Made by a program: the position numbers and the translations under genes. DNA of 64,000 bases from Gordonia oryzae (GTDB lineage: Bacteria > Actinomycetota > Actinomycetes > Mycobacteriales > Mycobacteriaceae). Location of the stretch: contig NZ_RKMH01000002.1 of assembly GCF_003797185.1 (NCBI RefSeq), forward strand, positions 248,001 to 312,000, in the 5' to 3' direction. Below are positions 22,454 through 55,300 of this stretch, one piece after another. A model generated the notes under the pieces. It did no database searches. It was not told where the DNA came from and saw only the letters and a list, made by a program, of their open reading frames with translations. How positions within the stretch are numbered: position 1 is the first letter of the stretch; every line of letters starts with the position of its first letter.

Positions 22454-22498
22454 TTCCTCACCTGTCCGAAAGGCATTCGGACTCAACCCATCCCATAC

Positions 22499-22530: not shown

Positions 22531-22548
22531 CATGAAAGGACACCGATC

Positions 22549-24072: not shown

Positions 24073-24077
24073 TCTGA

Positions 24078-24108: not shown

Positions 24109-24137
24109 CCCACTCTCTCACCAGCGAAAGGGATTCC

Positions 24138-26015: not shown

Positions 26016-26026
26016 AAGGAATCATC

Positions 26027-26992: not shown

Positions 26993-26999
26993 TCACAGA

Positions 27000-27057
27000 C
27001 CGGGGCGGCGTGGGGTTTCTCATCGGTTACCCGCGCCGCCCCGGCCCTTCGGGGCCA
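27000..27057 (+). terminator. paired GC-rich hairpins after the major tail gene
   Basis: CCGGGGCGGCG (27000-27010) pairs with CGCCGCCCCGG (27034-27044) across 23 bases. Directly after comes GGCCC-TTCG-GGGCC (about 27044-27057), a UUCG tetraloop hairpin; the two share the boundary base. No T-run. Probable terminator or mRNA-stabilising element. Confidence 0.6.
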
Positions 27058-27103
27058 CCCACAACCGATGACCTACCAACCGATGATCTGAAAGGAACAA
27101 CCG

Positions 27104-27685: not shown

Positions 27686-28065
27686 GGCAGTTTCCCAACG
27701 AGATTGAAGCCGACCTCCTGTTCCGGACCCCGTACACCATCGAGGACTGGTACAGGGGTCGGCTCTCATCGAGGGAACTCGTGGTGATCGTCACCCACCT
27801 CCCCGATGATTCCGCCACCAAGACGGCCATGCGCGAAGGCGATTGGTCTGAGGCCGAATACATGTCGGCCTTCACCGTGAACCAGCTGCTTCTCGTTCGC
27901 GCCGATCTTCGAGGCATGTTCGGCGGCCAGCAGTGGTCCCCGCCGCTCGTGAAGTCCCCGCAGCAACGGATCGCCGACGAGGCAAACCGCCAACAGGCGT
28001 CCTCGTGGAATGCCCACGTCACGGCTCAGATGCGTAACGCCCAACTCGCTCTCGAAGGGAGGTGA
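27662..28065 (+). CDS. tail assembly chaperone, T extension made by -1 frameshift
   Basis: Expressed as the C-terminal part of a fusion beginning at 27104. The extension reads LLRQFPNEIEADLLFRTPYTIEDWYRGRLSSRELVVIVTHLPDDS, then GDWSEAEYMSAFTVNQLLLVRADLRGMFGG. Together G and GT coat and time tape-measure assembly. The frame ends three bases before the tape measure start. An independent start is unlikely. Confidence 0.82.
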
Positions 28066-28068
28066 TCA

Positions 28069-34841: not shown

Positions 34842-34843
34842 CG

Positions 34844-36505: not shown

Positions 36506-36514
36506 GAGACTTCC

Positions 36515-40571: not shown

Positions 40572-40582
40572 AGGAGACCCAC

Positions 40583-40924
40583 ATGGTCGCAGTCACCAGC
40601 ACCAAGCAAACACTCGCCGCGTACTACGCCACTCTCGGACCGTATTTCGGCCTCGCAACCGGCAGTCCGGGAGCCACGGCTACGCCCGCCAACGAGGCAT
40701 CCGGCGGCTCGTACGCCCGCGTCGCCACCACCTGGTCGGCCGGATCGGGCGGGGTGATGAACGGGAGTGCCGTCACCGTCAACGCCCAGGCTGGCACCTA
40801 CACCTACGCCATCATGTGCTCGGGAGCGTCGGGCAACAACATGATCGACAACGTCGCCATCACCTCAACAGTCCTGTCAGCTCCCGGGCAAATCGTTCTG
40901 ACACCGACCTACACACAGTCATGA
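40583..40924 (+). CDS. small tail-associated protein
   Basis: 113 aa from ATG 40583, with AAAGGAG upstream. Beta-rich, Ala/Gly/Thr-rich (EASGGSYARVATTW, TVNAQAGTYTYAIMCSG), a fold seen in short actinophage tip proteins. Probably part of the tail tip. Confidence 0.65.
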   Translation: MVAVTSTKQTLAAYYATLGPYFGLATGSPGATATPANEASGGSYARVATTWSAGSGGVMNGSAVTVNAQAGTYTYAIMCSGASGNNMIDNVAITSTVLSAPGQIVLTPTYTQS

Positions 40925-41247
40925 CCGCCCCCGTCCACGGCGACGGCCGTCTCGCTATCACCGTGTGGCCCACCTTCATTGGCGTCATCGGACGCTGCGC
41001 CGACGGAACCCTCGGAGAGCCCACCCACCACCCCGACTATCGGCGATCCCAGATCACCTGGACCACAGGCGTACTCGTCACCGGACGCGCCCGGATCGCC
41101 GCCCCCGCAGGAGAGTGGACACACTTCGCCTACTTCCGTGGCCCTGGCGACCACGAGCCCGTCGGCGAGCCGGTCCCGATCGGTCAGTTCCCCATCCGCC
41201 TACCCGCAGGCGGCGTCATCGACGCCGATCCCATCATCGTCAACTGA
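40921..41247 (+). CDS. hypothetical tail-region protein
   Basis: 108 aa from ATG 40921 (four-base overlap). RLAITVWPTFIGVIGRCADGTLG and an aromatic beta pattern; no family recognised. Just before the lysin, so it could be the last tail protein. Confidence 0.55.
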   Translation: MTAPVHGDGRLAITVWPTFIGVIGRCADGTLGEPTHHPDYRRSQITWTTGVLVTGRARIAAPAGEWTHFAYFRGPGDHEPVGEPVPIGQFPIRLPAGGVIDADPIIVN

Positions 41248-41257
41248 AAGGGCGACC

Positions 41258-41962
41258 ATGTCTCTCTTCGCCGACGTTTCGGAGTTCCAGAACGTCGTGA
41301 ACGACTCGTACCCGTACCAGATCCTCTCGATTCGCGCGAACGATGGCACATACCGCGACGGACACTTCGCCGCCAACTATCTCTGGATGTGCGACGCTCT
41401 CAACAGCGGTCGTCTCGCGTGCGGAATCGTCTACGCCTACTGGCGCACGAACTGGCAGGACACCGTCAACACGATGCGGTCGATGATCGACTCCTGCGGT
41501 GGCCTGCACCCCAAGGTCATCCTGATGATCGACCTCGAGCGCGGCGGCAACCCGGCCGGCGACGAGACCGGAGCCGTAGACGCGACGGTCGACGCCATGG
41601 CCGCCTACGCCGGGAACCTCAAGCGGGTCATCGTCTACGCGAACTCCGGCGACTTTCATGAGATGTGGGCGGAATACTCGACTCGGCTCCCACAGATCGG
41701 CGGCCTGATCGCGGCCGGGTACGGCGCCAATCCTGGCCTGCCGTACCAGATCGCCCACCAGTACACCGACGGAAGCGGTTACGGCGGTGGACTTCCCGAA
41801 GGAACGGCACCATTCGGGAACTGCGACATGAACAGTGCCGACAACCTCACCCCGCAGCAGTTCGCGTCGCTCTGCGGTGTCGGCCCGACGAACCCCGGAG
41901 GCATGACCGACGCGCAGTACGCCCAATTCGCCACCTACATGGGGCAACTCGGACCCTCGTGA
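41258..41962 (+). CDS. lysA: endolysin, GH25-like muramidase
   Basis: 234 aa from ATG 41258, with GAAAGGG upstream. DVSEFQN at the N-terminus, catalytic pair in MIDLERGG (Asp92, Glu94), then VIVYAN and IAHQYTDG match glycosyl hydrolase family 25. It cuts MurNAc-GlcNAc bonds at lysis. A short C-terminal segment (MTDAQYAQFATYMGQLG) is common to actinophage lysins. No signal peptide, so it relies on holins. Confidence 0.85.
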   Translation: MSLFADVSEFQNVVNDSYPYQILSIRANDGTYRDGHFAANYLWMCDALNSGRLACGIVYAYWRTNWQDTVNTMRSMIDSCGGLHPKVILMIDLERGGNPAGDETGAVDATVDAMAAYAGNLKRVIVYANSGDFHEMWAEYSTRLPQIGGLIAAGYGANPGLPYQIAHQYTDGSGYGGGLPEGTAPFGNCDMNSADNLTPQQFASLCGVGPTNPGGMTDAQYAQFATYMGQLGPS

Positions 41963-42459
41963 CCACCGAGAGCGCCGCGGCCGAATGGCTCGCGCAGCAA
42001 CGGCGCCGCACCGACGCCACCGAGCACGTCGCCCGACTACTCGCCAACAACGCCCAACTGAGACCCCTGAAAGGAATCCCGATGTCCGATCCCGTCGCCA
42101 ACGCCTCCCAATTGGGAGACGCACAGAGCACGTGGGGCAAGACCCCGCGTCAGCTCGCCGCCCAGTACAACGCCGACCAGTCCGACTGGGGCCGCGTCTC
42201 GATCGAGCGCGCCGCACTCCTCGCGGGCAACACGCAGTTGTCGTGGAGCCCCTACGCCAACGGCAACACCACCAAGTTCGACGTCGAAGCTCTGATCCGG
42301 GCGACCGACGCCCGCTCGGATGCCATGTACGTCGAGGCCGGCGCCGCATTCGGCGACCCCGATTCCATCTCTCGCCTCACCGCCGCCGCAGCAGCGGGAA
42401 ACGCCCGCGCCATTGCGTGCTGCAAGCACCTCGGCCTCACCTACGGGAGCGCATCGTGA
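41959..42459 (+). CDS. hypothetical protein in lysis region, start uncertain
   Basis: 166 aa from GTG 41959 (GTGA overlap with lysA). An internal ATG at 42082 has its own GAAAGGA (about 42069-42075) and would give 125 aa; either or both may be used. Helical, with a SAAAEWLAQQRRRTDATEHVARLLAN helix before that ATG. No enzyme motif. Function unknown. Confidence 0.55.
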   Translation: MTTESAAAEWLAQQRRRTDATEHVARLLANNAQLRPLKGIPMSDPVANASQLGDAQSTWGKTPRQLAAQYNADQSDWGRVSIERAALLAGNTQLSWSPYANGNTTKFDVEALIRATDARSDAMYVEAGAAFGDPDSISRLTAAAAAGNARAIACCKHLGLTYGSAS

Positions 42460-43103
42460 AGTACAACAAGGCAATCTGGTCCGGGGCACTGTCGGTCGCC
42501 TCGGGGCTTGTGTTCATCTTGACCGTCGCACAGCCATACCTTCCGACGAAGGTTGGTGTGCCCATCGGCATCATCCTGCTGATCGCGATCCCCGTCGTCA
42601 CCTACCTGGTGCCCAACTTCGACCGCATCAGGGCCGATGCGGAGAAGGTGCTGAAAGACGCCAAGACCGGCAACGTCACCGCAGTGGTGCACGACGGCGC
42701 CCTGTTCGTTCGTGAGGACCTGGAGCCCGCACTCACAGCGGGGCAGGCATATCGGCAGAAGGTCGACAGCGAAGGAGCGACCGCGATCCTCTCCGGCGCA
42801 GACGGGCTGATCGGTGACGTCGAGCGCTATGCGCCAGCGCTCGGGAAAACCGTCCCTGCCGTCACCGAGGTGACCGCCGAGATACCGAAGGTCGAGCAGG
42901 CCGTGCACGCGGCGCGGGCAGGTCTCGCGGGCATTGCGAAGTTCACGGATACCCCCATCGCCAACGAGGCGTTGGCAGCCGCATCGGAGGCCAGCGCTGT
43001 CGCCACCAAGGTCACCCCGATCGCCAACGTGGCCGTCGCCGACGCCGAGAAGGTGATGTCCGCGCTACCGGTGGCCGACCTCCGCAAGGCACTCGGGTTG
43101 TGA
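42456..43103 (+). CDS. two-TM membrane protein, holin candidate
   Basis: 215 aa from GTG 42456. Two N-terminal membrane segments (about 8-27 and 33-53) and a long Ala-rich helical cytoplasmic or periplasmic tail. Position after lysA fits a holin, though 215 aa is long. First of four consecutive membrane proteins. Confidence 0.6.
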   Translation: MKYNKAIWSGALSVASGLVFILTVAQPYLPTKVGVPIGIILLIAIPVVTYLVPNFDRIRADAEKVLKDAKTGNVTAVVHDGALFVREDLEPALTAGQAYRQKVDSEGATAILSGADGLIGDVERYAPALGKTVPAVTEVTAEIPKVEQAVHAARAGLAGIAKFTDTPIANEALAAASEASAVATKVTPIANVAVADAEKVMSALPVADLRKALGL

Positions 43104-43486
43104 CGGCTCAGGCGAAGCTACTCGCACACGAGTCGGCCCGGTGGCTTTCCGTGCTCCTCCTCGGATTGGCGGCTGTGCTGATCCTTGGTGGCCAGCAGCG
43201 AGTCTCGGGCCCGTCATACAAGTTCGTCCACGACCTCGGCGGCTCCGACGTGTGGGGGCTGCTGTTCTTCGCCGGGGCGTTTGCGGTAGCCATCGCCAGC
43301 CTGAAGTGGCCCAGGGCGCTGAAGTGGGCGCTACGCCTCGCCGCAGTGAGCTTCCTGCTCTTCGCCCTCGCCGGGATCGGCGCGGCCATCGCCTCGCCGA
43401 TCGCCGGCCTCACCGGGATCGTGGTGTATCTCTGGCTGGCCTGCTGGGTCGTGTGGGTCGCAGCCGGGGTGGATGATGTCCGCTGA
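43100..43486 (+). CDS. four-TM membrane protein, holin candidate
   Basis: 128 aa from GTG 43100. Hydrophobic segments near 13-30, 50-66, 75-95 and 98-122, with short loops. Size and position fit a class I-like or accessory holin. Coupled to both neighbours. Confidence 0.6.
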   Translation: MTAQAKLLAHESARWLSVLLLGLAAVLILGGQQRVSGPSYKFVHDLGGSDVWGLLFFAGAFAVAIASLKWPRALKWALRLAAVSFLLFALAGIGAAIASPIAGLTGIVVYLWLACWVVWVAAGVDDVR

Positions 43487-43940
43487 CGAGCCCGCACCCC
43501 TTGTGTGGGTCGGCGTCCGGGGCGCTGCCCCGTTCGAGAAGGCCGTCTTCTGGGCAGGCGTCCTACTGGGCCTGATCAGCCTGTGTACCGAGGTGGATGT
43601 GTCCAACGCTCTCGCCGCGTCGTGGCCGCAGTACTTCCGTATGGGCAACGACGTCTTCTATGCCATCTACGGGATCGGCGGCCTCATCGGCGTGGTGGCG
43701 ACGTGGCGTACCTCGGACTGTCCCACGATCTCTCATCGGCGTGCGACTTCCGAGGCGTGGGCGCTGTTCGTGTGCGCGATGGCTCAACTGGCCTACTCTG
43801 CTGCGGCATTCGATGCCGGACACGGCGGTATCCACGGCGGTGTGGTTGGGGCACTCCTGGCCGCCGCCTGTGCAATTCGTATCCGGCAGATCCGGTCTGA
43901 TCTGAAAAAACTACGGCAGGTGAGAGACGGTGACGAGTGA
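43473..43940 (+). CDS. four-TM membrane protein in lysis cassette
   Basis: 155 aa from ATG 43473; 43476 is an alternative. Membrane segments near 20-40, 55-78, 92-112 and 118-135, then a basic C-terminus (RIRQIRSDLKKLRQVR). Overlaps the previous gene by 14 bases. Holin or antiholin partner is possible. Confidence 0.55.
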   Translation: MMSADEPAPLVWVGVRGAAPFEKAVFWAGVLLGLISLCTEVDVSNALAASWPQYFRMGNDVFYAIYGIGGLIGVVATWRTSDCPTISHRRATSEAWALFVCAMAQLAYSAAAFDAGHGGIHGGVVGALLAAACAIRIRQIRSDLKKLRQVRDGDE

Positions 43941-44263
43941 TCACGCAGGTAATCGCGATCTTCACAGCACTCTCCGGCGCGGGCCTGCTGTCGTGGATCG
44001 CGGCGCTGGTCAAGCAGTGGATGGACCGTGGGCATCGACGAGTCCATGACGAGTCGATCGTGGCCGCCACCACCCGCAACCTCATCGAGCCCGTCCAACA
44101 GGAGTCGGAGCGTCGCCTGCAACGAATCGTGTTCCTCAAGAGAGTGATTCGGCGGCTGGACGACCACCTCGACGACTGCCGAGATGCGGCACGCAATGCG
44201 GGAATCACCCTGCCATTGATGGACGACGACCTCCGCAACCAGATCGACGAGATCGGAGAATGA
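43937..44263 (+). CDS. single-TM coiled-coil protein, spanin-like candidate
   Basis: 108 aa from GTG 43937. One N-terminal membrane segment (residues 2-24), then a charged helical region (VQQESERRLQRIVFLKRVIRRLDDHLDD). The layout resembles Rz-type or LysZ-like proteins of mycolata phages. Directly before lysB. Confidence 0.55.
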   Translation: MITQVIAIFTALSGAGLLSWIAALVKQWMDRGHRRVHDESIVAATTRNLIEPVQQESERRLQRIVFLKRVIRRLDDHLDDCRDAARNAGITLPLMDDDLRNQIDEIGE

Positions 44264-44976
44264 CAATGCAGATCACCAAGGTCATCCGCTGCCGTGGGAT
44301 CGGCGAAGACCCCACCGGCCACGACACAATGCTCGAGGGGGTCACCGATCTCATCCCCGGGATCGAGACAGTCGAGCTGCCCTGGTCGGCTCAATACGGC
44401 CCCGTGGGACGTGCAGGCCTCACCGGCGACGACTACCTCCACGCCCTCCAGCAAGGCGTGGCCCTGGCGCTCGCCGAACTCGATCGAGGGCCCGCCGCCC
44501 TCTTCGGATACTCCGGGGGTGCCCAGCTCGCCCACATGACCGCGGCGCACGGCCACCACAACCTGCAGGGTGTGGGATTCATCGCCGACCCAGCGATGCC
44601 GAAGGGGATCGGCCCCAACTACGGGGTGACCGGCGCCGACCCTGAGCCCATCAGCGTGCCCAAGCACTGGGTGTGGAACCCGCTCGACATCATCTGCCAA
44701 TGTCCGGCCGACTCGCCGATCCGCGACGTCGCTGACTTCTCGGAGTCCTTCTCCGCGCAGAACTTCCCCGGCTGGACCTGGGACATGCTCGACGACCTCC
44801 GATTCGGGCGCTGGCAGGTGCTGGGGAAGTACCTGTTCATCAGCCCTGTGGACCAGTGGAGGCGGTGGGGTGCGGCGATCGCCGGCGCCACTGGGTACCT
44901 CAATGGCACCGAGCATGTGGCGGCTTATCATGGTGCGCGCCAACGGGAGCTGGCCGACTGGGTGAAGTCGCTGTGA
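44260..44976 (+). CDS. lysB: LysB-like mycolylarabinogalactan esterase
   Basis: 238 aa from ATG 44260. Alpha/beta-hydrolase/cutinase-type serine motif GYSGGA with Ser85, a VWNPLDIICQCP loop that may hold the Asp, and a His in the C-terminal GTEHVAAYHG. Together with the lysin and membrane proteins this matches LysB, which cuts the ester bond between mycolic acids and arabinogalactan in the final lysis step. It points to a mycolic-acid host. Confidence 0.85.
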   Translation: MTMQITKVIRCRGIGEDPTGHDTMLEGVTDLIPGIETVELPWSAQYGPVGRAGLTGDDYLHALQQGVALALAELDRGPAALFGYSGGAQLAHMTAAHGHHNLQGVGFIADPAMPKGIGPNYGVTGADPEPISVPKHWVWNPLDIICQCPADSPIRDVADFSESFSAQNFPGWTWDMLDDLRFGRWQVLGKYLFISPVDQWRRWGAAIAGATGYLNGTEHVAAYHGARQRELADWVKSL

Positions 44977-45245
44977 AGCATCTGCCGCCCGAACGGGCGT
45001 GGGCGCTGATCGCGGCGTTCGTGGTCGCCTATGACCTCGCATGCCATCGCGGGCAGACGCTCTCCGAGGAGGCCGACCGATGGACGAAGGCACACCCGGT
45101 GCTCGCTAGGGCCGGAATCCTCGCCGTCGCACTACATGTCGCCAATGTCGTCCCTGATCGGCTCGACCCGCTGCATCGGATTGCCGAGATGCTCCCGAAG
45201 ACGGAATGCGCGGCAAAATCGGAAAACTATTGTGCAACAACATAA
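44973..45245 (+). CDS. small hydrophobic protein after lysB
   Basis: 90 aa from GTG 44973. RAWALIAAFVVAYDLACHRGQTLSEEADRW..HPVLARAGILAVALHVANVVPDRLDPLH has two hydrophobic stretches and matches small proteins commonly found near actinophage lysis genes (DUF7427-like, from memory). Its last codons contain the -35 of a downstream promoter. Confidence 0.65.
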   Translation: MKHLPPERAWALIAAFVVAYDLACHRGQTLSEEADRWTKAHPVLARAGILAVALHVANVVPDRLDPLHRIAEMLPKTECAAKSENYCATT

Positions 45246-45259
45246 TTGAGTGCTACAGT
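45230..45259 (+). promoter_or_regulatory. sigma70-type promoter for a candidate small RNA
   Basis: TTGTGC (45230-45235), 18-base spacer, TACAGT (45254-45259). It overlaps the end of the preceding gene and would start transcription near 45266. Confidence 0.5.
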
Positions 45260-45265
45260 AAAGGC

Positions 45266-45466
45266 ACAAGTTCAGAGCGGGTGAGGTTCAGGAACATACA
45301 CTGACGCCAACCGGGACCAGAGGCCAGCTCCTCCGTCACCGACCGGCCACAGATCAAGAAACACTGGGAGCCCAATCGCAGAGAGTCATGATGCGACACC
45401 CGCTCTGAGCCTGGACAACCACTAAGCCGCCCCCGATCCACACGGATCGGGGGCGGCTTCGTTTTT
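45266..45466 (+). ncRNA. candidate structured small RNA (about 200 nt)
   Basis: Between the promoter at 45230 and a strong terminator ending at 45466. TCAGAGCGGGTG (45272-45283) pairs perfectly with CACCCGCTCTGA (45397-45408), closing about 110 bases that contain further GC-rich segments. No plausible coding frame with a ribosome site is seen. It could be a regulatory RNA of the prophage. No known family recognised. Confidence 0.5.
45424..45466 (+). terminator. strong intrinsic terminator
   Basis: AAGCCGCCCCCGATC (45424-45438) pairs perfectly with GATCGGGGGCGGCTT (45445-45459), six-base loop, followed by CGTTTTTG. Ends the rightward late transcript and faces leftward genes. Confidence 0.92.
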
Positions 45467-45472
45467 GCTCCC

Positions 45473-46042
45473 TCAGCGAGACCGCTTCGTCGTCACTGGC
45501 GTGGTGACCCGGTGCGCAAATCGCCGGTACGCATTCTGACGTGCGATACCGAGCGCATCACCGATGTAGTCCCAGCTCATTCCCGCATCCCGTGCCGACT
45601 GCACGGCCTGCAAAAGGATCTGGTCGCTGGCCTGATTCAGCCTTTCCGACGTCGCCAGAGCGGCGAGGAGCTGATCGTGTCGCCGGCCGAGTGAGAAGTA
45701 GCGCCCCTCGGCTGCGAGGTCGGACAGGGCCTGTAGCGCGGAGCGAAGGGAGGCGCCGGCTCCTGCGTCGAGCGCGTCCTGGTAGGCCCAGAGTGCGTCG
45801 TAGAGGTCGCGATCTTCCAAGACCGGGCGCCCCGCCGCGTCCCAGCGTCCATGGGTGTCGATCGCCAGTGCCTCTGCCGCCGTCGGCTGGTCAGGCAGGA
45901 TGCCGTACTTCTCGACGGCATCTTGCAGCGCGGCGTAGACCTCGTAGCCGCTGGCGCTGCCGCCGGACGCGTACAGGGCTGCGGTGAATGCGGCGTGCTC
46001 GCTGTAGTCGCGAGGCATGTCCTCGGGGGTGTGTGTCATCAT
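45473..46042 (-). CDS. helix-turn-helix regulator, lysogenic type
   Basis: 189 aa from ATG 46042. N-terminal helical region and a C-terminal DNA-binding segment SARDAGMSWDYIGDALGIARQNAYRRFAHRV, a helix-turn-helix common in actinobacterial proteins. Its start lies inside one of two identical-arm palindromes (46035-46051, 46060-46076), so self-repression is likely. Reversed relative to the late genes. Confidence 0.65.
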   Translation of the reverse strand: MMTHTPEDMPRDYSEHAAFTAALYASGGSASGYEVYAALQDAVEKYGILPDQPTAAEALAIDTHGRWDAAGRPVLEDRDLYDALWAYQDALDAGAGASLRSALQALSDLAAEGRYFSLGRRHDQLLAALATSERLNQASDQILLQAVQSARDAGMSWDYIGDALGIARQNAYRRFAHRVTTPVTTKRSR

Positions 46043-46076
46043 GGTGATGACATTACACCGTCATCATCATGATGAC
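46035..46076. promoter_or_regulatory. two operators GTCATCA-N3-TGATGAC
   Basis: Palindromes at 46035-46051 and 46060-46076 have the same half-sites GTCATCA and TGATGAC with different 3-base centres (TGG, TCA), centres 25 bases apart. They cover the start of the HTH gene. Such pairs usually bind a dimeric regulator. Confidence 0.65.
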
Positions 46077-46088
46077 AAGGTGTAGCGA

Positions 46089-46394
46089 TCAGCCATTCGG
46101 TTCCCAGTCGTCCCCCAACACCTCGGCGATCCGCTTCACCAGCCCCGGCATCTCCCGCCGACGCCCGTACATCACCTCGTCGATCTCCACAGCCAGCGCT
46201 TCCAGCTCGGGGTCCGGTCGCGCCCACGCCGACGGATCACTCTCGAGCATCGCGGCCTGCTCGATGGCCTGACGCTGGCGCATCAGATCGCGGATATCGC
46301 GGGCGGCAGCGGAGAGGAGAGCGCGGTCGATCACGGGGTGAGCGTAGATCTGGGGTGTGACACGCAATCGATTGACGGAAACTCGGGGATTCAC
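46089..46394 (-). CDS. hypothetical helical protein
   Basis: 101 aa from GTG 46394; GTG 46334 (VIDRALLSAAARDIRD) is a plausible shorter start. Helical with AARDIRDLMRQRQAIEQAAM and EALAVEIDEVMYGRRREMPGLVKRIAEVLG. Precedes the HTH gene on the same strand with 46 bases between. Function unknown. Confidence 0.55.
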   Translation of the reverse strand: MNPRVSVNRLRVTPQIYAHPVIDRALLSAAARDIRDLMRQRQAIEQAAMLESDPSAWARPDPELEALAVEIDEVMYGRRREMPGLVKRIAEVLGDDWEPNG

Positions 46395-46432
46395 GTCGCG
46401 TCAGCACCCATAGGTGGGATAGAACATGACGT

Positions 46433-47032
46433 GTGAAGAAGGCAATCGGCGCAATCGTTGTACTCCTGGCCATCGGTTGTGCAGCCGGTTGCGGGACCAG
46501 TTCAGATTCGAGTACCACCGCCGGCCGACACAGCTCATCGGCCACATCGGCATCGACCGCGACAGAGACCGCGGACGTCCTCAACAAGGCGGTCGGGCAG
46601 TCGGCCGGATGGAACTGTGCTGACGCCTCCGACGAAAGCTGTTCACTCGCCTTCACTGTCACTGCACTCGACAGGGTGCCTTCGGCCAACTGCTCAGACA
46701 GCGCGCCTCCGCCTGCGGGTTCCGAGATCTACCGACTGGCCATCGATGCGCAGGCCTACCATTCAACCCCGGCGCCCAACGCAACCTTGCCTCCGGGGTT
46801 CGTCATCTCCTCGGACAACTGGTACGCGATCGACGCGGACGGATACGGCACGAAGGCCGATGTCGCCATTGGGTGTGGCGACTTCGATCCCGGACCTTTC
46901 TATCGGCCTCTCAGTGTTGGCCAAAAAGGCCGTGGAAGCATCCTGTTCGCTCTTCCTGCGGGCTCCCGCGAACTTGAACTGCGCGAACAAGGTACGCCGG
47001 GAACGTGGCGCTGGGCGCTGCCGGCGGCGTGA
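46433..47032 (+). CDS. predicted lipoprotein
   Basis: 199 aa from GTG 46433. A basic N-terminus, hydrophobic helix (AIGAIVVLLAIGCAAGC) and a lipobox-like AAGC at residues about 17-20, then a Ser/Thr-rich linker and a Cys-containing beta domain (WNCADASDESCSLAFTVTAL; IDAQAY). Lipoproteins at this position in mycolata prophages can act in superinfection exclusion; here that is inference. Confidence 0.7.
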   Translation: MKKAIGAIVVLLAIGCAAGCGTSSDSSTTAGRHSSSATSASTATETADVLNKAVGQSAGWNCADASDESCSLAFTVTALDRVPSANCSDSAPPPAGSEIYRLAIDAQAYHSTPAPNATLPPGFVISSDNWYAIDADGYGTKADVAIGCGDFDPGPFYRPLSVGQKGRGSILFALPAGSRELELREQGTPGTWRWALPAA

Positions 47033-47178
47033 GATTCGTTCGGGGCGACCGCGTCCACATTCTCGGCACTGACCGATGGGGCAAGGTGGCGGGCGAGCTC
47101 CGACCGCTCATCGCGGTCGACCTCGACGACGGCGACAGGGGAGTTTTCGCGGCCGAGGAACTGGAGCATCTGGACTGA
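47029..47178 (+). CDS. 49-aa protein with KOW/DUF1918-like core
   Basis: GTG 47029 overlaps the lipoprotein stop by four bases. Product VRFVRGDRVHILGTDRWGKVAG then a VDLDDGDRGVFAAEEL end: a small beta-barrel-like sequence resembling KOW or DUF1918 proteins. The coupling supports it. Last gene before the tRNA fragment. Confidence 0.5.
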   Translation: MRFVRGDRVHILGTDRWGKVAGELRPLIAVDLDDGDRGVFAAEELEHLD

Positions 47179-47194
47179 CCGTCATCACCCACGG

Positions 47195-47209
47195 TTTACC
47201 CACGGTAAA
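47195..47209. repeat. palindrome TTTACC-CAC-GGTAAA
   Basis: A perfect 6-bp inverted repeat with a 3-base centre, between the 49-aa gene and the integrase stop. Candidate protein-binding site near the attachment region. Confidence 0.35.
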
Positions 47210-47259
47210 TAACTGGAATGATGCGCCTCAATAGAGAGCAGACGGACAGGCGAAGTCTC

Positions 47260-49080
47260 TCACCTGCACCTAGGGCAACGGCATGGACCGCTAGGACCCA
47301 GGCGTACCAGCCGACGCATCGAGTAGGTCAGGGGTTCGATTCCCCTTAGCTCCACCAAAGTGTTCTTACTCGAACCGGTGCCCAAAAGGATGTCGGCGAG
47401 GGATAGAGCCAGATCAGAAGAAGACGAGTCGTCACCTACAGCCACCGAGGCCTCCGCAAGGGGGTCTCGGTGCGTATCTGGCTCCGTGTAGCCAGCCATC
47501 ACAGTGGTCGGTCTCGCCTTCCGCGTGAGCTGGTGCGCAGCATAGAAGTCGTCGAACGGCGGATTGTGACGGCTGCCCTGCACCCCATGCTCATCGACGT
47601 AAAAGTGCTGGTAAAACGCCTGGTTGAGGTTTCGCCGTATGGTGTCGTTCCCGTCGCGGTAGTAGACGGCTGGGTTGGACACGAGTTCGAGGGCTTCGAT
47701 CAGCACTCCGGCTCCGGCGGCAATCTCAGCCGATGTGTTGGCCAGTCCTGCCTCGGCTGATGCGCGGTCAGCCTGGATCTTGCGGAGTTTGGCCCTGACC
47801 TTGGCCTGCGGAAGGGCTTCGTCAGCGAGGACGTCGATGAGTCGGTCTTCCTTGGCTTCGAGTTCTTTGAGTCTGCGTTTCAGGGATGCGTGGAGTTCGG
47901 TCACGCTGCGTTGCTCGTCGGCCATGGCGTCCGCGAGTACTTCTCGAACGCGAGTAACAAAGTGCGGCGGAAGTGTCATCGCGAAGTAGTGATCTACGAT
48001 CGCCTGCTCGACTCCTTCGGCGGGAAGGTGCGGGAGGTCGCAGACGCCGTCCTGACGTCCTCGACACAAGAAGTAGGCGTACCGCCGACCTGAGCGACCC
48101 CGGGCCTCTGTGAAGATGAGCCGGGATACCTGTCCGCGCTCTTCGCATCGGGCGCAGAACAGTGTGCCTTTGAGGTAGTGCTGGAGGACTCGGTCGCGCT
48201 GCCCTCCTTTGCTTCGTAGGTTCATGACGTCCTGCACACGGTCAAACAGATCTTGGTCAATGATCGGCTCGTGCCGCCCCTGGTAGATCTCACCTTTGTA
48301 GGTCACGTAGCCCAGGTAGTACTGCTCTCTGAGCATCCTGTGCAGCCATTTGAATGTGACAGGGCGTTCGGGGAGCTTCGGAGTGGCCCGGGTGGTCAGC
48401 CCGAGATCAGCCATGGTCGCTTCGAGCCGCTCAAGGCCGTATTCCCCGGTGGCATACAGTTCGAATGCTTTGCGCACCAACGGTGCCCGTTTGGGGTCAA
48501 GCTGCACGGTGTTGATCTGTCGGCCTTCATGCTCGACGCGGACGTTCTGGTAGCCGAGCGGCGCTTTGCCTGTGGTGCCGCCGTTGATCGCCTTGTGCTG
48601 GAGCTTGATGCGAATGTCTTCGCCGCTGAGGCGATTCTGCACCTCGTTGAAGATGTCGGTGACGGCTTCCATGGCGTCGGCATAGACACCATCACCGAAA
48701 TCTTCACGTGCAGACACGAGTCTGACGTGGAGCTTGTCCAGGAGGCGTTTCGTTATTGCGGCGTCGATATAGTTCCGGAATGCGCGAGACCTCGCATATA
48801 CGACGACATACCGAACGTCGGGATTCTCGCGCAGATACGCGAGCATGTCCTGAAAGACTTGGCGCTTCTCGATTGTTGACGCCGAGACGCCGGGCTCAAC
48901 GAACTCGCGTGCAACGATCGCTCCGATGCTGTCCGCCTTTCGCGTGCTGACCTCACGCTGGGTTGCGATGGAATTTCCATCCGGATCGATGTCAACGGCC
49001 GTATCCATCTGCTTCTTGCTCGACACGCGCAAATAGAGCACGGCCTTCCCGGCGCCATCGGTGTTGGTCGCGTGAGTCAT
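47260..49080 (-). CDS. large serine integrase
   Basis: 606 aa from ATG 49080. Resolvase domain AVLYLRVSSKKQ with probable nucleophile Ser20, then TRKADSIGAIV, VVVYARSRAFRN; recombinase domain (APLGYQNV, FKWLHRMLREQYYLGYVTYKGE); zinc ribbon (FCARCEERGQ...FLCRGRQDGVC); coiled coil (LKRRLKELEAKEDRLIDVL). It exchanges attP and attB. The last 32 codons are unusual: LVELRGIEPLTYS is antisense tRNA-Ala, and the final 20 codons and stop come from the DNA beyond it. It follows the XRE gene by three bases. Confidence 0.92.
   Translation of the reverse strand: MTHATNTDGAGKAVLYLRVSSKKQMDTAVDIDPDGNSIATQREVSTRKADSIGAIVAREFVEPGVSASTIEKRQVFQDMLAYLRENPDVRYVVVYARSRAFRNYIDAAITKRLLDKLHVRLVSAREDFGDGVYADAMEAVTDIFNEVQNRLSGEDIRIKLQHKAINGGTTGKAPLGYQNVRVEHEGRQINTVQLDPKRAPLVRKAFELYATGEYGLERLEATMADLGLTTRATPKLPERPVTFKWLHRMLREQYYLGYVTYKGEIYQGRHEPIIDQDLFDRVQDVMNLRSKGGQRDRVLQHYLKGTLFCARCEERGQVSRLIFTEARGRSGRRYAYFLCRGRQDGVCDLPHLPAEGVEQAIVDHYFAMTLPPHFVTRVREVLADAMADEQRSVTELHASLKRRLKELEAKEDRLIDVLADEALPQAKVRAKLRKIQADRASAEAGLANTSAEIAAGAGVLIEALELVSNPAVYYRDGNDTIRRNLNQAFYQHFYVDEHGVQGSRHNPPFDDFYAAHQLTRKARPTTVMAGYTEPDTHRDPLAEASVAVGDDSSSSDLALSLADILLGTGSSKNTLVELRGIEPLTYSMRRLVRLGPSGPCRCPRCR
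47323..47357 (+). tRNA. tRNA-Ala 3' fragment (att site)
   Basis: GTAGGTC variable region, T-arm AGGGG-TTCGATT-CCCCT (47330-47346), acceptor strand TAGCTCC (47347-47353), A and CCA (47355-47357). The acceptor would pair with GGGGCTA, including the G3-U70 pair diagnostic of tRNA-Ala; tmRNA shares that feature and is not excluded. No 5' half precedes it, so it is a displaced 3' copy, as left by integration into a tRNA gene. It overlaps the integrase gene antisense. Confidence 0.8.
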
Positions 49081-49669: not shown

Positions 49670-50278
49670 TTATATGTTGGCATTGAATAGCCAGACTCCG
49701 CCCTCAGGGTCGTCGATGCTTGCAATGTCGCCGCTGGCTTCGAGGTCGCGGGCGATGGCCGCGTAGTCAATGTGGGTGTATTGCTGTACGTACTCGGGCA
49801 GCTTTTCCAGTTCCTGGGTGTAGCCGAGGTCGTCAGCGAATTGTTCGGCGTAGTCGGTGATGGATGCGTAGTGTCCGAGGTAGGCCTCCTGGAAGGCGTC
49901 GTCTGGGTCGCTGTCGTCGTCACGTGTGTGGCGCCACGCCGCGTAGGCGTAGCCGTGCTCAGCGATGCCACGCGCGAGTGCGGCGACGTGCTCGATGCGG
50001 TCGTATTCGCCGATCTGGCACTGTCCGAATTGGTCGTAGTCGTGGATGGCCCATTCTTCGGCGTCGGGCTCCTGTGAGGTGGCGAGCATGGTCGCGATGT
50101 CGGCGTAGATGTCGTCGGGGTCGCGGGCGGTGTTGAGCCAGGTGCCGTGGAGTCGTCCGTTGTTGTAGTCGGCCAAGCTGGCGACGTAGATCGACGGCTT
50201 TGGCGACGGGTCGCCTTCGTGGTGGCGCTCGGAGTCTGCGGTACCCGGCTGTGATGGTTCGTGAGGGGTTTCATTCAT
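49670..50278 (-). CDS. ardA: ArdA-like antirestriction protein
   Basis: 202 aa from ATG 50278, with AAGGAGG five bases upstream. PSIYVASLADYNNGRLHGTWLNT, then ATMLATSQEPDAEEWAIHDYDQFGQCQIGEYDRIEHVAALARGI match ArdA over its length. The protein is very acidic and mimics DNA to inhibit type I restriction enzymes after transfer. Found on conjugative elements, which suits this context. Confidence 0.9.
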   Translation of the reverse strand: MNETPHEPSQPGTADSERHHEGDPSPKPSIYVASLADYNNGRLHGTWLNTARDPDDIYADIATMLATSQEPDAEEWAIHDYDQFGQCQIGEYDRIEHVAALARGIAEHGYAYAAWRHTRDDDSDPDDAFQEAYLGHYASITDYAEQFADDLGYTQELEKLPEYVQQYTHIDYAAIARDLEASGDIASIDDPEGGVWLFNANI

Positions 50279-50420
50279 TCTCACCTCCTTTCGTGGTCAT
50301 GGGTTGTTGACGGGCCGGGTCGGAACGCGGGGAGAGCGTGGTGCTCGGTCTCCGTGTCCCGACCCTGGCCCTGGGGTTGCGCCGTGAGGGTTCAGCGGCG
50401 TCCGTGTGATGCCGCGGGCA

Positions 50421-50831: not shown

Positions 50832-51869
50832 TCATGCAGCTGCCCCTTCGGGTGGTGCCCGGCGTTCTCGCGCGTCGGCGATCCGCTGTTCGGCGGCGGC
50901 AGCGAATGCTGGGTTGATCTCGATGCCCATCCAGTCGCGGCTGAGCGTCTCGGCGGCGATAGCGGTGGTGCCGCTGCCCATGAAGGGGTCGAGGACCAAG
51001 CCTGGCTCCTTGGCCGCGTGGCATCCGCAGGTCGGTGCAAGGGCGTCGCGGGTAGCGGTTCCGCCGAGCGCGCGGATGACGTTGCGCCGCCACGGTGCTC
51101 GGCAGCGCGTGCAGCGAGCTTCGGGGCAGCCGGCGGCGATCATGCGTTCGGCTAGCTTGAGCGGGAAGATCGCATGGTGGGCAGCCCGGTAGCCGCCTGG
51201 GGTGATCGTCCAGACGTCGCCGGGGTTCTTGCCGAGGGGATGACCGTTTCGTCCCTGGGCTTTGATCGACTGCAGGCCGCTGGCGGCCATCCCGTTCGGT
51301 CCGCGCCACGATTCCCGCGCCTGCCCTGTGGCCTTTGCAGTCTTGCGCTTCGACGTTGATCGGCTCCGTAGCGGTTGGCGGATGGCGTCGAGGTCGAAGA
51401 AGTAGCGGGGCTGCTTCGCGAGGACGTAGATGACTTCGTAGGTGCAGTTGAGCCGGTCTGGCACGCTGGTCGGGACCGGGTTCGGCTTGGCCCAGACGAT
51501 CTTGTTGCGGATGATCCAGCCGTTGTCCTGGAGGCGAAGCGCGAGTCGCTCGGGAGCCATCAGCAGGCTTTTGCGAGCGGCGCCCTGCGACGAGTGGCCT
51601 GAGTAGGTGTCGCCGACGTTGAGCCAGAAGGTGCCGGTCGGGACGAGGACACGGCGGACTTCATCACTGAGTGCTACGAGGTGGGTCACCCAGTCGTCGA
51701 CGTGAGGTTCGAGCCCGATCTGGCCGTCAGCGCCGTAGTCACGCAGACGGAAGTACGGAGGACTGGTGACAACACAGTCGACCGAGCCGTCTGCCAGAGC
51801 CGAGAGGTGGGTCAGCGCATCGCCGACCACGATTCGGTTTCGCTCGACTGGTTGTTGATTCGCACTCAT
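50832..51869 (-). CDS. site-specific DNA methyltransferase (N4/N6 type)
   Basis: 345 aa from ATG 51869, overlapping the next upstream gene by four bases. Motif IV TSPPYF near residue 42 and motif I DPFMGSGTT near residue 305, the beta-class order. TSPPY slightly favours cytosine-N4. An internal zinc-like CTRCRAPW...CGC lies near 270-295. No restriction enzyme adjoins it, so it may protect the element during transfer. Confidence 0.87.
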   Translation of the reverse strand: MSANQQPVERNRIVVGDALTHLSALADGSVDCVVTSPPYFRLRDYGADGQIGLEPHVDDWVTHLVALSDEVRRVLVPTGTFWLNVGDTYSGHSSQGAARKSLLMAPERLALRLQDNGWIIRNKIVWAKPNPVPTSVPDRLNCTYEVIYVLAKQPRYFFDLDAIRQPLRSRSTSKRKTAKATGQARESWRGPNGMAASGLQSIKAQGRNGHPLGKNPGDVWTITPGGYRAAHHAIFPLKLAERMIAAGCPEARCTRCRAPWRRNVIRALGGTATRDALAPTCGCHAAKEPGLVLDPFMGSGTTAIAAETLSRDWMGIEINPAFAAAAEQRIADARERRAPPEGAAA

Positions 51870-52861
51870 CGCAAACCTCCAGTGCCGAGGAGCGGTAGGA
51901 GGTCCTCTGGTGCGACGACGCGGAACAGCGCGGTCGGTAGCCGTCGGTCGGCAGCGATTGCGTCGGTGAGATCCTGGCGGCGTCGTTCGGCCCGCTCGGT
52001 GTTGGCGTGCGTCACCGACCAGACGACGAGCGGGAACGCACCGTGTTCGGACTGCTCGAAGCCGGTCTGGCGGTAAGCTTCGTACTCGCGGCACTTGGTG
52101 AGCAGTGTCGGGATGTGCTCGGTGCCGAGGTCGACTTCGATGAACCAGGCAGAGACGAGGTCGTCGGTTGAGGCAGTTTCGGCGTATAGGTCGGGCTTGA
52201 GGATGCGGCGAGCCGATCCGATTCCGGTGAAGCGGCGCCAACTGGCAGGCTCGACGGCACCGTCGACCAGATCGACGTCCCCGGCTCGGTGGGCCACGAC
52301 GAGGGCAACGTGGGCATCGGCAATGGCGAGGCGGTGGTTGACGAAGCGAGGGCTCGGATCGAACCGCAGGCGTCCGGTTCGCCGCCGGTTGGTTTTTCGG
52401 GCCAACATTCGATCTCCGGCTACACCGACGTGGAAGATGAGTCCCGCTGATCCGGCGCGTGTACCGCCGATCCGGCGATCGAGTGTGTCGAGGACGCGAA
52501 GTCCTCGTAGGCGGTTCAGCACCCGTCGGGCGATGCGGTTGCGCGCGTTCGAGCTGATGGCGGCGAAATGGAGTCCTTCGATCTGGCGGACAGTGAGGAA
52601 TTGGTGTTCATCGACGGACGCCAGGATTGCGCGGTCGCGGTCACTAAGACGGTCGGCGATGCGGTCGATGTCGGCGGCAGATAGCCGGCGCCGTGGCCGT
52701 GCGGACGGTGTGGTGCCCGTATGGGCACCATCATTCCCTGACGGTACGGATGCGGATGATTCGTTGACCAGGGGTGATACGGACGGTGTGGACGACACGA
52801 CCGGACCAGCGACCGGATCACCGTATGCTGCCTCACCCGCCCCGTGTATCGCCCCGTTCAT
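51866..52861 (-). CDS. replication-relaxation family protein
   Basis: 331 aa from ATG 52861. After a low-complexity 60-residue N-terminus comes a winged-helix-like part (LSDRDRAILASVDEHQFLTVRQIEGLHF), then RFVNHRLAIADAHVALVVAHR and FIEVDLGTEHIPTLLTKCREYEAY. This matches the Replic_Relax family (PF13814) of actinobacterial mobile elements. Probably acts at the element's origin. Coupled to the ATPase gene upstream. Confidence 0.8.
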   Translation of the reverse strand: MNGAIHGAGEAAYGDPVAGPVVSSTPSVSPLVNESSASVPSGNDGAHTGTTPSARPRRRLSAADIDRIADRLSDRDRAILASVDEHQFLTVRQIEGLHFAAISSNARNRIARRVLNRLRGLRVLDTLDRRIGGTRAGSAGLIFHVGVAGDRMLARKTNRRRTGRLRFDPSPRFVNHRLAIADAHVALVVAHRAGDVDLVDGAVEPASWRRFTGIGSARRILKPDLYAETASTDDLVSAWFIEVDLGTEHIPTLLTKCREYEAYRQTGFEQSEHGAFPLVVWSVTHANTERAERRRQDLTDAIAADRRLPTALFRVVAPEDLLPLLGTGGLR

Positions 52862-55059
52862 GCCTGCCTCCGTCGTCGCCGGGGGCCGCCGATGTCGTCG
52901 GCGTCGGTCGTGTGCTGCGCACCCTCGATGAGCGCGGTGAAGCTGGCTTCGATGTCGGCGAGCGGTTGTCCGTAGCGGTCGCGGCTGCGACGGCGAATGG
53001 CGGCGGGGTCGCTGCTGGTGGCTGGCGCGGGGTTGGTGGCTCCGGACGCCCAGGGCTGGACGGCGTTGTCGCGCACCAGGCTGGCGTAGATGTGGTGGGC
53101 CGGGAGCCGGGTGAAGTCCTCGACAGTGAGGACGGATTGCCCGGCCACCATTTCCTTGGCGTCACCAGCTTGGAGCTGGAAGCAGACGCGCGAGCGGGCG
53201 TTGTTGCGGAATGCGTCGAGCATCGACGATGGCAGCTGCTTCTCATACTGGTGAGCCAGGTGAAACCCGGCGCGCAGACTCCGAGCGGTTGCCAGGGCGT
53301 CGCCGAGATCGGTGGGAAGTCGGAGGTAGTCCTGCACCTCGTCGATGTAGATCATCACCGGGTCGCGTTGGTCTTCGGGTGTTCCGACGCGTTCGCGGAT
53401 GGCTTGCCAGAGTTCGGCGACGACCAGCGCGCCGAGCAGTTGGGCGTTCTCCGGCCCAACAACACCTTTTTGGAGCGGGACGAGCAGCACCTTCTTCTCC
53501 GACAACGCCTGCCGCACGTTGAACTTCGGATGTTGTTGAGCCAGCACATCGCGAAGAGGCCTGCTCAGCAGCGGGCGCAGCTTGTTGCTCAGGGGTGCGA
53601 TGGTGGTGGCGGTTGCTTCCGGCGACAAGCTGTCGAACCACTGCCAGAACGGCCCAGCGGCAAACGGGTCGGACTCCATGACGCCGCGGGTCAGGCGGCG
53701 GCGGAAGCCGGGATTGGTCAGCAGCAACGGCAGCATGACGAGGCTGGCGTCGTCGCGGCGGGCGAGGAGATCGAGGCAGTTACGCAGGATGTCGGCCGAT
53801 CGCGGCCCGAGACCGTCGCCCCAGATGGCTTTGAGGGTGCCGAACAGGGCGTCGGCCACCACCTCGGGTGAGCGCCCGTGACGGTTCTGGGCATCGAGCG
53901 GATTGATGCCGACGGGTGCTTCATCGAACAGGTCGAGCACGACGATGTCGCCCTGGCGCTTCTCCGGTATGCGGGCCAGGAGGTCGGCGATCAGGTCCTT
54001 CGGCTCGATGACCACCACGGGGCGGTCGGCTTCGAGGTCTTGGATGATGAGGTTTAACAGCAACGTCGACTTGCCGACGCCGTTCGGTCCGATCACCCAT
54101 GTGTGCCGGAGTGCGTCGGTGACGTTGTAGCCGATGGTGCCGTGCGCGCCTGGTGCGCTGGCTTCGGCGACGACGCGCACACCTTGTGTGAGGGCATTGC
54201 TTGGCCGGACGGGGCGAGGGTGGATCGGTGGCTGGCCGGGAAAGTGTTCGTCGCGATCGGCGATGGGCCACCCTGACAAGCGCGCTACTTCGGTGACGGT
54301 GAGGCGCTGGGATGGCGTGAACATTGACCATGAGGCGCGCGGTGTGTTGACGCGGGCGCTATTCTCTTGCCGCAGCATGATCCGAACGTCGGGTGCTTCG
54401 GTAGTCCCGATTGCCGCTGAGAGTCCGGTCAGCAGCACCTTTCGCCGCTCGGCGGTCCCTGCTTTTGCGCCGAGGCGGACGGCGGCGGTGAACGCGTGCT
54501 GGCCGAGCTTGTGTGTGAGGGCCTGTTTGGCGTCGGGGCGGTTCTCGCTGAGGACTCCGTGGATCAGCTTCGACACTGTGGGCTGGTTGTCGCGCATCAA
54601 CGTCTGAGGCGGACTCTGGGGGTGATGGCGGGGGCCAAGCACGATCTGGATGGTGAGTTGTTCACCCTTCCCGACCGCAGTCAGGGCGTGCAGGATGGAG
54701 CGATGTGAGGCCACCGCGTCGACGGGCTCCAGTTGACGAAGGCTGGTACTCAACTGCACTCGGCGGGCCGTGGTGACGTGTTCCCGGTCGGCAGTATCGA
54801 AACTGGTGACGATGGCGCCATCGACGAGTTGCTCAACAGCACGCCGGACGGCCGCCCGGTGCCGGAGCTGACTCCCGATTAGGTATTCTACGCCAGTCAC
54901 GTCGGCACGCGCTTCGAGGATCAGTTGAGGTGCATGGGTCCGTGCAGCAAAGTGCCGCAGCAATCCGAACGCTGTCGTCTCTGGAAGTGGTTGCGGCCAA
55001 AACAGCTGTTGCCACACCATCGATCCCGCCGACACGGTGGTCTCACCCAGCTCAGTCAT
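52858..55059 (-). CDS. HerA/TraD-like conjugative ATPase
   Basis: 733 aa; I chose ATG 55059, which has GGAG seven bases upstream and overlaps the preceding stop; 55077 is in frame. Walker A GPNGVGKST near residue 320, Walker B VMIYIDEVQDYL near 560, plus FHLAHQYEKQLP and ARSRVCFQLQ in the C-terminal half. These fit the VirD4/TraD-HerA (DUF87/TraM-recognition) ATPases of actinobacterial elements. Expected to drive DNA transfer. No relaxase or full type IV system is visible here. Confidence 0.82.
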   Translation of the reverse strand: MTELGETTVSAGSMVWQQLFWPQPLPETTAFGLLRHFAARTHAPQLILEARADVTGVEYLIGSQLRHRAAVRRAVEQLVDGAIVTSFDTADREHVTTARRVQLSTSLRQLEPVDAVASHRSILHALTAVGKGEQLTIQIVLGPRHHPQSPPQTLMRDNQPTVSKLIHGVLSENRPDAKQALTHKLGQHAFTAAVRLGAKAGTAERRKVLLTGLSAAIGTTEAPDVRIMLRQENSARVNTPRASWSMFTPSQRLTVTEVARLSGWPIADRDEHFPGQPPIHPRPVRPSNALTQGVRVVAEASAPGAHGTIGYNVTDALRHTWVIGPNGVGKSTLLLNLIIQDLEADRPVVVIEPKDLIADLLARIPEKRQGDIVVLDLFDEAPVGINPLDAQNRHGRSPEVVADALFGTLKAIWGDGLGPRSADILRNCLDLLARRDDASLVMLPLLLTNPGFRRRLTRGVMESDPFAAGPFWQWFDSLSPEATATTIAPLSNKLRPLLSRPLRDVLAQQHPKFNVRQALSEKKVLLVPLQKGVVGPENAQLLGALVVAELWQAIRERVGTPEDQRDPVMIYIDEVQDYLRLPTDLGDALATARSLRAGFHLAHQYEKQLPSSMLDAFRNNARSRVCFQLQAGDAKEMVAGQSVLTVEDFTRLPAHHIYASLVRDNAVQPWASGATNPAPATSSDPAAIRRRSRDRYGQPLADIEASFTALIEGAQHTTDADDIGGPRRRRRQA

Positions 55060-55300
55060 CGGCAGACTCCATTGCATCGGCCTGCTCTTCCGATGTCGAC
55101 TTGTCCACGTGAGTTCCGGTCAGCGCCTGATCGATATCTGCTTGTAGTTCGGCCTCGCGCATGGCCATCGCGATCACCGCACGGCTGAGCTTGCGGAGGT
55201 CTGGCTGGTCGCGCCGAACCCCGTGCACGACGATCTGGCGATCTGACTTCGGCGTACCCCGAGCCCCACGCCGATAGTTTGTTCTTCCTGTTTTAGACAT
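55052..55300 (-). CDS. small conserved mobile-element protein
   Basis: 82 aa from ATG 55300, with GGAGG six bases upstream. SDRQIVVHGVRRDQPDLRKLSRAVIAMAMREAELQAD recurs beside this ATPase type in actinobacteria. Basic then acidic; function unknown. First gene of the leftward operon after the AT-rich control region. Confidence 0.65.
   Translation of the reverse strand: MSKTGRTNYRRGARGTPKSDRQIVVHGVRRDQPDLRKLSRAVIAMAMREAELQADIDQALTGTHVDKSTSEEQADAMESADD

Follow-up and report, generated by a model that had tools for sequence, protein, structure and literature searches.

A serine integrase gene of Gordonia oryzae that is probably split by integration at an in-frame attachment site, with a helix-turn-helix half at the far end of its element

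We analyzed a 64,000-nucleotide stretch of the Gordonia oryzae genome (the window; contig 18: 248001-312000 of a 4.5-Mb genome, labeled G000), in which a serine integrase gene runs antisense through a piece of a tRNA-Ala gene. From comparative sequence analysis, we consider it very likely that this gene is split by the integration of the mobile element that carries it (element B) and that its halves are rejoined on excision. The attachment site of the circular element (attP) would sit in frame in the integrase gene, between a recombinase part of ~575 codons and a helix-turn-helix tail of ~150 codons, and recombination between attP and a tRNA 3' end would cut the gene at codon V576. The recombinase part would then stay at one end, where its frame reads antisense across the tRNA and on into host DNA; the other end, 26 kb away, would keep the helix-turn-helix half, and excision would yield one integrase of about 725 amino acids in the circle. 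The position and frame of both halves, the core, the attP arms, and the tRNA half-site are supported by the sequence comparisons described below; from these we infer the circle, the full-length protein made in it, and a state-dependent behavior of the enzyme.

The initial annotation of the window described the integrase gene as running antisense through a fragment of a tRNA-Ala gene, its 3' end, and this was borne out: LVELRGIEPLTY corresponds to residues 575-586, 20 residues follow it, and in a search of the own genome 47315-47355 (integrase codons 576-589) matched the tRNA-Ala exactly over 41 bp (E = 8e-15). The word fragment is also apt, as ARAGORN called no tRNA in the window. The intact tRNA-Ala(CGC) lies 65 kb upstream (contig 18: 230615-230688) and is the left attachment site (attL) of a siphovirus-type prophage, prophage A, which starts at contig 18: 230648, 17.4 kb left of the window, and has PHROGs matches for terminase, portal, head, tape measure, minor tail, and endolysin. 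A tyrosine integrase adjoins this attL on the element side. The 41-bp copies enclose a phage whose tyrosine integrase gene adjoins the intact tRNA. The fragment is therefore attributed to prophage A as its right attachment site (attR), and this accounts for the absence of the tRNA 5' half from the window; prophage A, not the serine-integrase element B, deposited the 41-bp piece. Prophage A would have entered the same tRNA later than element B, and since its 41-bp attR would have re-created the half-site beside the core of element B, the attL of element B still looks complete.

The integrase contains PF00239, PF07508, and PF13408 in this order, all above cut-off, as large serine recombinases (LSRs) do, and its PHROG 95 match covers residues 10-515. 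The nearest curated NCBIfam models, those of the cassette recombinases CcrB and CcrC, score 59 bits against a cut-off of 900, placing the protein outside these families, and a sequence search of the PDB gave no informative match. To locate the core, we compared both ends of a related element of about 11.5 kb in genome G414 with element-free tRNA 3' ends (G493 is without that element, and G494 holds a different element there). The attL of G414 reads TTAG-CTCCAC-CAAAG and the other end reads GATTGC-CTCCAC-AAAGTTTGAA; the element-free ends read TTAG-CTCCAC followed by AAAGTGTGAA (G493) or AAAGTTTGAG (G126). The right junction of G414 was assigned from the core word and a short likeness, with alignable host backbone starting about 65 bp past the second CTCCAC. 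The core thus consists of the last five bases of the tRNA and one more. Since the core of element B is the tRNA end, the codons past V576 are not element B DNA and the C-terminus depends on context. Accordingly, the C-terminal difference between neighbors that the initial annotation anticipated was found among homologs, the tails past the core differing in the window, in G009, and in relatives at intact tRNA genes.

The same CTCCAC recurs at the far end of element B (contig 18: 321462-321467), where it starts an open reading frame (ORF) in the same frame. This half-gene begins at the same GTGGAGCTA as the integrase side, on the same strand, and matches HTH_38 and CENP-B_N, a tandem helix-turn-helix; the element in G009 carries the same half-gene, 85% identical. 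An altered C-terminus in the excised form, which had been predicted, therefore needs restating: the tail is indeed context-dependent, but the excised protein would not merely receive another tail, it would regain this domain from the far end. The proposal that the fragment itself is the recombination site also stands in part. The core does lie inside the 3' coding end of the integrase gene, but the fragment comes from prophage A and only CTCCAC within it is the core of element B. That the fragment is instead the serine element's own attachment copy, the excised form having a merely different and meaningless C-terminus, would fit an integrase frame that crosses the fragment; we regard it as very improbable because the 41-bp copy bounds prophage A, the core of the serine element is only a few bp long, and the far end holds a conserved in-frame domain.

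The sequences around the core resemble the attachment sites of LSRs. The P' arm of the putative attP, GGTTCGAGTAAG, lies inside the integrase ORF and encodes GSSK; its inverted repeat is found on the half-gene side near TACTCGAAC, which encodes YSN, at a distance of about 10-25 nt from the core. In the consensus of relatives, TCGAACC lies 13 nt from the core codon on the tRNA side, where it is part of the T-loop, versus 18 nt on the half-gene side (offsets counted by hand from consensus strings, the 5-bp shift being read for the right arm only). The distance between T-loop and 3' end is constant among tRNAs, which would explain how one clade can use many tRNA genes. A section of PMC3783163 describes the zinc-domain motif of LSRs as shifted 5 bp inward in the chromosomal site (attB) compared with attP, and a short core (from G414) and, by hand reading, the inverted-repeat attP arms and this inward shift are all present here. 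The word shared at the junctions is GT plus at least one further base, and arm symmetry and shared bases fix no single crossover dinucleotide. A second TACTCGAACC arm with another spacing lies outside the far-end core (contig 18: 321468-321510) and likewise in G009 (C1, right of 1518504), as if it were a relic of another family member.

To see whether the arrangement recurs, we assembled the window, six of the seven loci of a first search (the omitted one, from Planctomycetes, matched 70 residues), and 29 loci given for 43 listed matches in other genomes, which made 36 family loci, or 33 after three duplicates were dropped. The integrase frames of the relatives run antisense into a complete tRNA gene, often through the entire gene. 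A tRNA (Ala, Leu, Arg, Val, Pro, or Glu) was called at 29 of the 33 loci, and at all 29 the frame is open through the T-loop in one identical phase; the GGTTCGAGTAAG motif (≤4 mismatches) is in frame at 27 of them and was not found at two. The loci without a tRNA call are the window, G009 (with 6.4 kb of sequence between the integrase and the intact tRNA), L061, and L080. As a second test we used a set covering the class Actinomycetes (30 loci given, from 39 listed matches; 27 after the own genome and two repeats were dropped). Here a tRNA was called at 24 loci, 22 of them in the same phase, and the motif was in frame at 17 of the 24, in other phases at two, and not found at five. The remark in the initial annotation that tRNA targeting is less usual for serine than for tyrosine integrases is in line with a section of PMC3218068 that terms such cases rare, but among these relatives tRNA targeting is the usual state (29/33 and 24/27).

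In plasmid and phage collections, searches with the integrase and with the fused C-terminus gave no close relative, all matches being below 60% identity. A viral contig collection (viral_contigs) contained one contig with an integrase identical to that of the window, one related, and two distant, and no match to the fused C-terminus. The identical one (L248, IMGVR_UViG_2866513116_000002) is a public 82-kb 'viral' contig whose integrase includes the borrowed tail; this contig is probably a merger of element B and the end of prophage A.

We searched for the half-gene in 33 genomes, 30 with the integrase and three (G463, G445, G016) with a similar tRNA junction only, and obtained 46 matches, some weak, in 25 of them. 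For placement, the 37 of 44 integrase rows that lie in searched genomes were compared with all 46 matches on the same contig within 100 kb. Twenty-four matches lie within this distance, of which 21 have the predicted strand and side and account for 17 of 18 integrases; the three misplaced ones come from G090 (one) and G028 (two). The class-wide search, with an 11-row alignment, gave 26 matches in 15 of 27 genomes; for 32 of the 39 integrase rows, all 11 nearby matches were on the predicted strand and side (9 of 9 integrases), and 15 matches were on other contigs or farther off. The arrangement could also be a coincidence, since open antisense frames are frequent in tRNA genes, these genomes commonly contain helix-turn-helix genes, and antisense tRNA peptides are known as annotation artefacts. 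One phase in 29/29 and 22/24 loci, and the predicted strand and side for 17/18 and 9/9 integrases with a nearby match, render this hardly credible.

The core codons agree on the two sides. On the integrase side, the valine codon and its neighbor read GTG GAG (Ala), GTG CCC (Leu, Arg), GTG GGC (Val), or GTC GGG (Pro), and on the half-gene side of the same contig GTG GAG/GAC, GTG CAC/CGC/CTC, GTG GGC, or GTC GCC. An in-frame valine is shared by both sides in G000, G009, G225 (first integrase), G419, G260, G105, G123, G182, G268, G090 (first integrase), G305, and G405, in G702, G538, and G838 of the class-wide set, and, by ORF reading, in G589, G629, G826, and G507 (G576 is ambiguous). These codons were picked by eye, and the unbiased support for the frame is given by the phase counts. 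Automated half-gene starts were doubtful for L195, L199, L204, L206, and L216, and starts from codon printouts were used for G405, G394, and G090. The rows of G296, G321, and G429, misaligned at first, gave a usable core for the first two on a second look and none for G429, whose half-gene contains a stop and no recognized core. A third integrase of G426 (L261) ends past the core without a tRNA call, the nearest half-gene being 93 kb away. In G296 (L201; C58, bases 484-1866), an ORF that resembles a tyrosine integrase by eye ends one stop codon before the helix-turn-helix frame, perhaps again two recombinase types at one site.

A fused frame occurs in real sequence. On contig 30 of G015, a genome of the same genus, bases 2-652 read through GSSKNTLVE into AIRRNSK..RPRPGW without a stop, and the contig is 92.5% identical to the right part of element B over 12.2 kb. 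We rejected the idea that this contig is a circle because its integrase end differs from the integrase copy at the tRNA of that genome. It is best read, from its sequence, as a tandem junction in which one element would lend its tail to the next. In the class-wide set, the half-genes L297 and L308 hold in-frame arm-core-arm units (GSSKAILVQVLGRYSN and SSKDIMVELNGRYSK). Both show two or more such units one after the other, which resembles a duplication of attP within the coding frame.

The far-end ORF might be a separate gene, for a regulator or directionality factor, that stands beside attR by chance, with the integrase tail irrelevant and without a fixed stop. The PHROG match that stops at residue 515, the lack of conservation past the core among integrase tails, and related helix-turn-helix ORFs found away from listed integrases all fit this, as does a possible start codon within 54 codons past the core codon in 19 of 25 half-genes. 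We consider it unlikely nonetheless. The likeness begins at the core, and V1 is invariant in the 11-row alignment (whose rows were cut to start there); one frame is kept by both halves; and the frame is fused in G015 and spans the units of L297 and L308. In the remaining six of the 25 half-genes (L188, L191, L196, L197, L200, L209), the stretch that follows the core codon is free of ATG, GTG, and TTG up to codon 55 or beyond, and the core codon of L200 is GTC, not a usual start. The ratio of non-synonymous to synonymous substitutions (dN/dS) of the tail between elements is 0.12-0.25 in five pairs, a sixth pair being identical. The corresponding values are 0.07-0.20 for a stretch of about 145 codons that precedes the linker and 0.34-0.60 across the 75 columns of the linker (six pairs; some synonymous distances approach saturation). 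Integrase and tail diverge together, their pairwise distances being correlated (r = 0.70, 13 elements), and none of 20000 permutations gave a value as high. Together, dN/dS, co-divergence, and start codons favor, short of proof, one protein from a joined gene over a separate gene.

Besides the 19 start codons, several observations weigh against a gene split by integration and rejoined on excision. Neither an excised circle nor the full-length protein was observed, and the fused frame of G015 begins at a contig edge and reads as a tandem junction rather than a circle. Even when the tail is absent, the recombinase part is a complete unit, and the tail may thus be dispensable. The half-gene search gave no match in eight of 33 genomes (G034, G066, G323, G353, G325, G463, G445, G414), and in the class-wide set 12 of 27 genomes had none at the cut-off used; by eye, G414 has a decayed half-gene. 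Twenty-two of the 46 matches have no listed integrase on the same contig within 100 kb (they lie on other draft contigs or farther off), and half-gene-like genes may also occur apart from integrases. Individual loci depart from the pattern as well: the integrases L282 and L284 of the class-wide set are out of phase, the second integrase of G090 stops just before the core, at tRNA-His, that of G225 has no adjacent tRNA call and a half-gene whose start is not GT, and the half-gene of the metagenome contig L249 has an in-frame stop. A check of the half-gene side by the motif only (≤4 mismatches) found 14 of 29 loci in frame, nine out of frame, and six without the motif; this check is weak, several matches falling outside the arm.

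As for function, the most likely option is that the tail would promote integration, or restrain the integrase (int), only in the circle, so that integration would remove its own driver. By analogy with split archaeal integrases and with a mycobacteriophage repressor gene that contains attP, we infer that the long form may drive integration and that its loss may stabilize the integrated state. The chief competitor accepts the split and assigns the tail a role in regulating transcription of int or of transfer genes in the circle, with no part in recombination. The tandem helix-turn-helix architecture would suit a regulator, and known LSRs recombine without a helix-turn-helix tail of this sort; nothing direct speaks against it, but a tail covalently joined to the integrase is more suggestive of action at the attachment sites. 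We regard this competitor as possible, though doubtful. We would give even chances to a wider proposal, namely that an Actinomycetes clade of serine integrases has a long, tailed form when circular and a tail-less form when integrated, uses the T-loop as a half-site, and produces chimeric integrases by tandem insertion. If this two-form proposal is true, integration edits its own enzyme, and directionality or timing would be set through DNA rearrangement; the T-loop, universal in tRNAs, would as zinc-domain half-site allow the clade to pass from one tRNA gene to another and would be the reason why these enzymes use them. The direction of serine integrases is normally ascribed to a separate directionality factor. 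Here, the layout of the element may encode the switch itself, the same crossover that integrates the element taking a domain off the enzyme that performs it.

Among the closest known systems are archaeal ones. A section of PMC4158269 describes ArcVen-P3, in which recombination in a tRNA gene divides an SSV-type tyrosine integrase gene in two, with one fragment at either border of the element. By comparative sequence, element B likewise has an integrase gene in halves at its two borders; however, its enzyme is a serine recombinase whose domains all remain intact after the split, only an appended helix-turn-helix tail being lost, so it works alike without being a member and would be a bacterial serine counterpart. 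DsiB, the serine recombinase of the Dehalococcoides ssrA islands, also has a gene whose 3' end overlaps attL and lacks a fixed stop, and the authors, in the relevant section of PMC3146451, considered that it may be whole or fully functional only when carried by the circle or when an adjacent island supplies the 3' fragment that it lacks. DsiB differs in having the transfer-messenger RNA gene (ssrA) as its target and a partner, DsiA, whereas all targets called in our loci are tRNAs. No 3' fragment is identified in that section; in our case it is identified, in frame, and recurrent in Actinomycetes. Our results suggest what the fragment postulated in 2011 could be.

Other known systems share single features with element B. 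The section of PMC3218068 on actinomycete integrative and conjugative elements (AICEs) lists eight mycobacterial serine recombinases in a tRNA-Leu gene, which are similar in being actinobacterial and tRNA-targeted and are of the conjugative type that element B probably has, but it describes no split gene or in-gene attP; relatives of the element B integrase at tRNA-Leu exist, which may or may not be these AICEs. In the integration-dependent immunity of mycobacteriophages (a section of PMC8092301), attP also lies in a coding gene and integration alters the C-terminus and the activity of the protein, but the gene is that of the repressor and the integrase is of the tyrosine type, whereas the core of element B is in the integrase gene. 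The Ralstonia phage phiRSM1 (part of PMC3816273) integrates by a serine recombinase at a tRNA 3' end with a 13-nt core; its recombinase is small and resolvase-like, and its attP lies between ORF14 and ORF15, not in the integrase gene. Among the sections of open-licence literature covered, we found no report of an identified split serine integrase. Element B and its relatives offer tRNA-targeting serine integrases with a proposed on/off tail that is testable, and database annotations of such elements may be wrong in the placement of attP, of the protein ends, and of the element borders.

Element B is 26.1 kb long and extends beyond the right edge of the window, its far end by the core being contig 18: 321467 (Table 1). 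A right end near contig 18: 322825, suggested by a neighbor gene shared in a comparison with G028, was rejected in favor of this core-based end. That gene directly follows the tRNA in G028 and G397, and in G024 it follows the tRNA copy of another element; it therefore bounds element B from outside only. The right end of the tRNA-Ala element of G426 was not found within 60 kb via element-free Nocardia sites. Among the scanned ORFs of element B, a search that was not exhaustive, the replication-relaxation match is strong, that to VirD4 is weak, no match to FtsK or VirB4 was obtained, and no second serine recombinase was seen. We regard element B as separate from prophage A and as probably of conjugative type.

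Table 1 Features of the serine integrase locus, element B, and prophage A (window coordinates unless contig 18 is given).
Feature	Position	Strand	Basis
Serine integrase ORF, 606 aa	49080-47260	-	ORF listing; Resolvase, Recombinase, zinc-ribbon domains
Element-encoded part, residues 1-576 (catalytic, recombinase, zinc-ribbon, linker)	47353..49080	-	PF00239, PF07508, PF13408; PHROG 95
Borrowed tail, residues 577-606 + stop, from tRNA copy and prophage A end	47260..47352	-	Not conserved between contexts
attL core of element B, GTGGAG on integrase strand (codons V576-E577)	47350..47355	-	G414 attL/attR versus element-free tRNA 3' ends
P' arm of putative attP inside integrase ORF	47356..47376	-	In frame in relatives; inverted-repeat partner on half-gene side
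T-loop sequence TCGAACC, putative zinc-domain motif of attB half-site	47333..47339	-	Consensus of relatives
Half-gene, 150 codons, two helix-turn-helix motifs (VELVRRNSKL..RPRPGW..)	contig 18: 321018-321467	-	ORF from core, integrase strand and frame
ArdA antirestriction protein (element B)	49670..50284	-	PF07275, E 3e-41
DNA methyltransferase (element B)	50832..52241	-	PF01555, E 3e-44
Replication-relaxation protein (element B)	51866..52861	-	PF13814, E 5e-44
VirD4/TrwB-like coupling ATPase, weak match (element B)	52858..55077	-	PF10412, E 1.3e-4, 21.4 bits, cut-off 20.5
Prophage A, right-hand part (siphovirus-type)	1..47355	+	PHROGs matches; 41-bp repeats as bounds
attR of prophage A, 41-bp tRNA-Ala(CGC) 3' end copy	47315..47355	+	100% identical to contig 18: 230648-230688

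At contig 18: about 316940-320990 (L044:1637-5693), element B also carries a SacI-type restriction enzyme adjoining a C5 methyltransferase, and a GmrSD-type restriction enzyme that sits beside the half-gene. Elsewhere in the own genome, G000:C19:28369-29121 holds a second, partial relative of the serine integrase with an internal stop. In the genus, the tRNA-Ala(CGC) gene acts as a hot spot for several elements: a tyrosine-integrase phage and a serine-integrase element share one gene here, the half-site of element B being preserved by the 41-bp repeat of prophage A, and a second tRNA 3' copy is separated from the intact tRNA by about 6.4 kb in G009 and 7 kb in G024.

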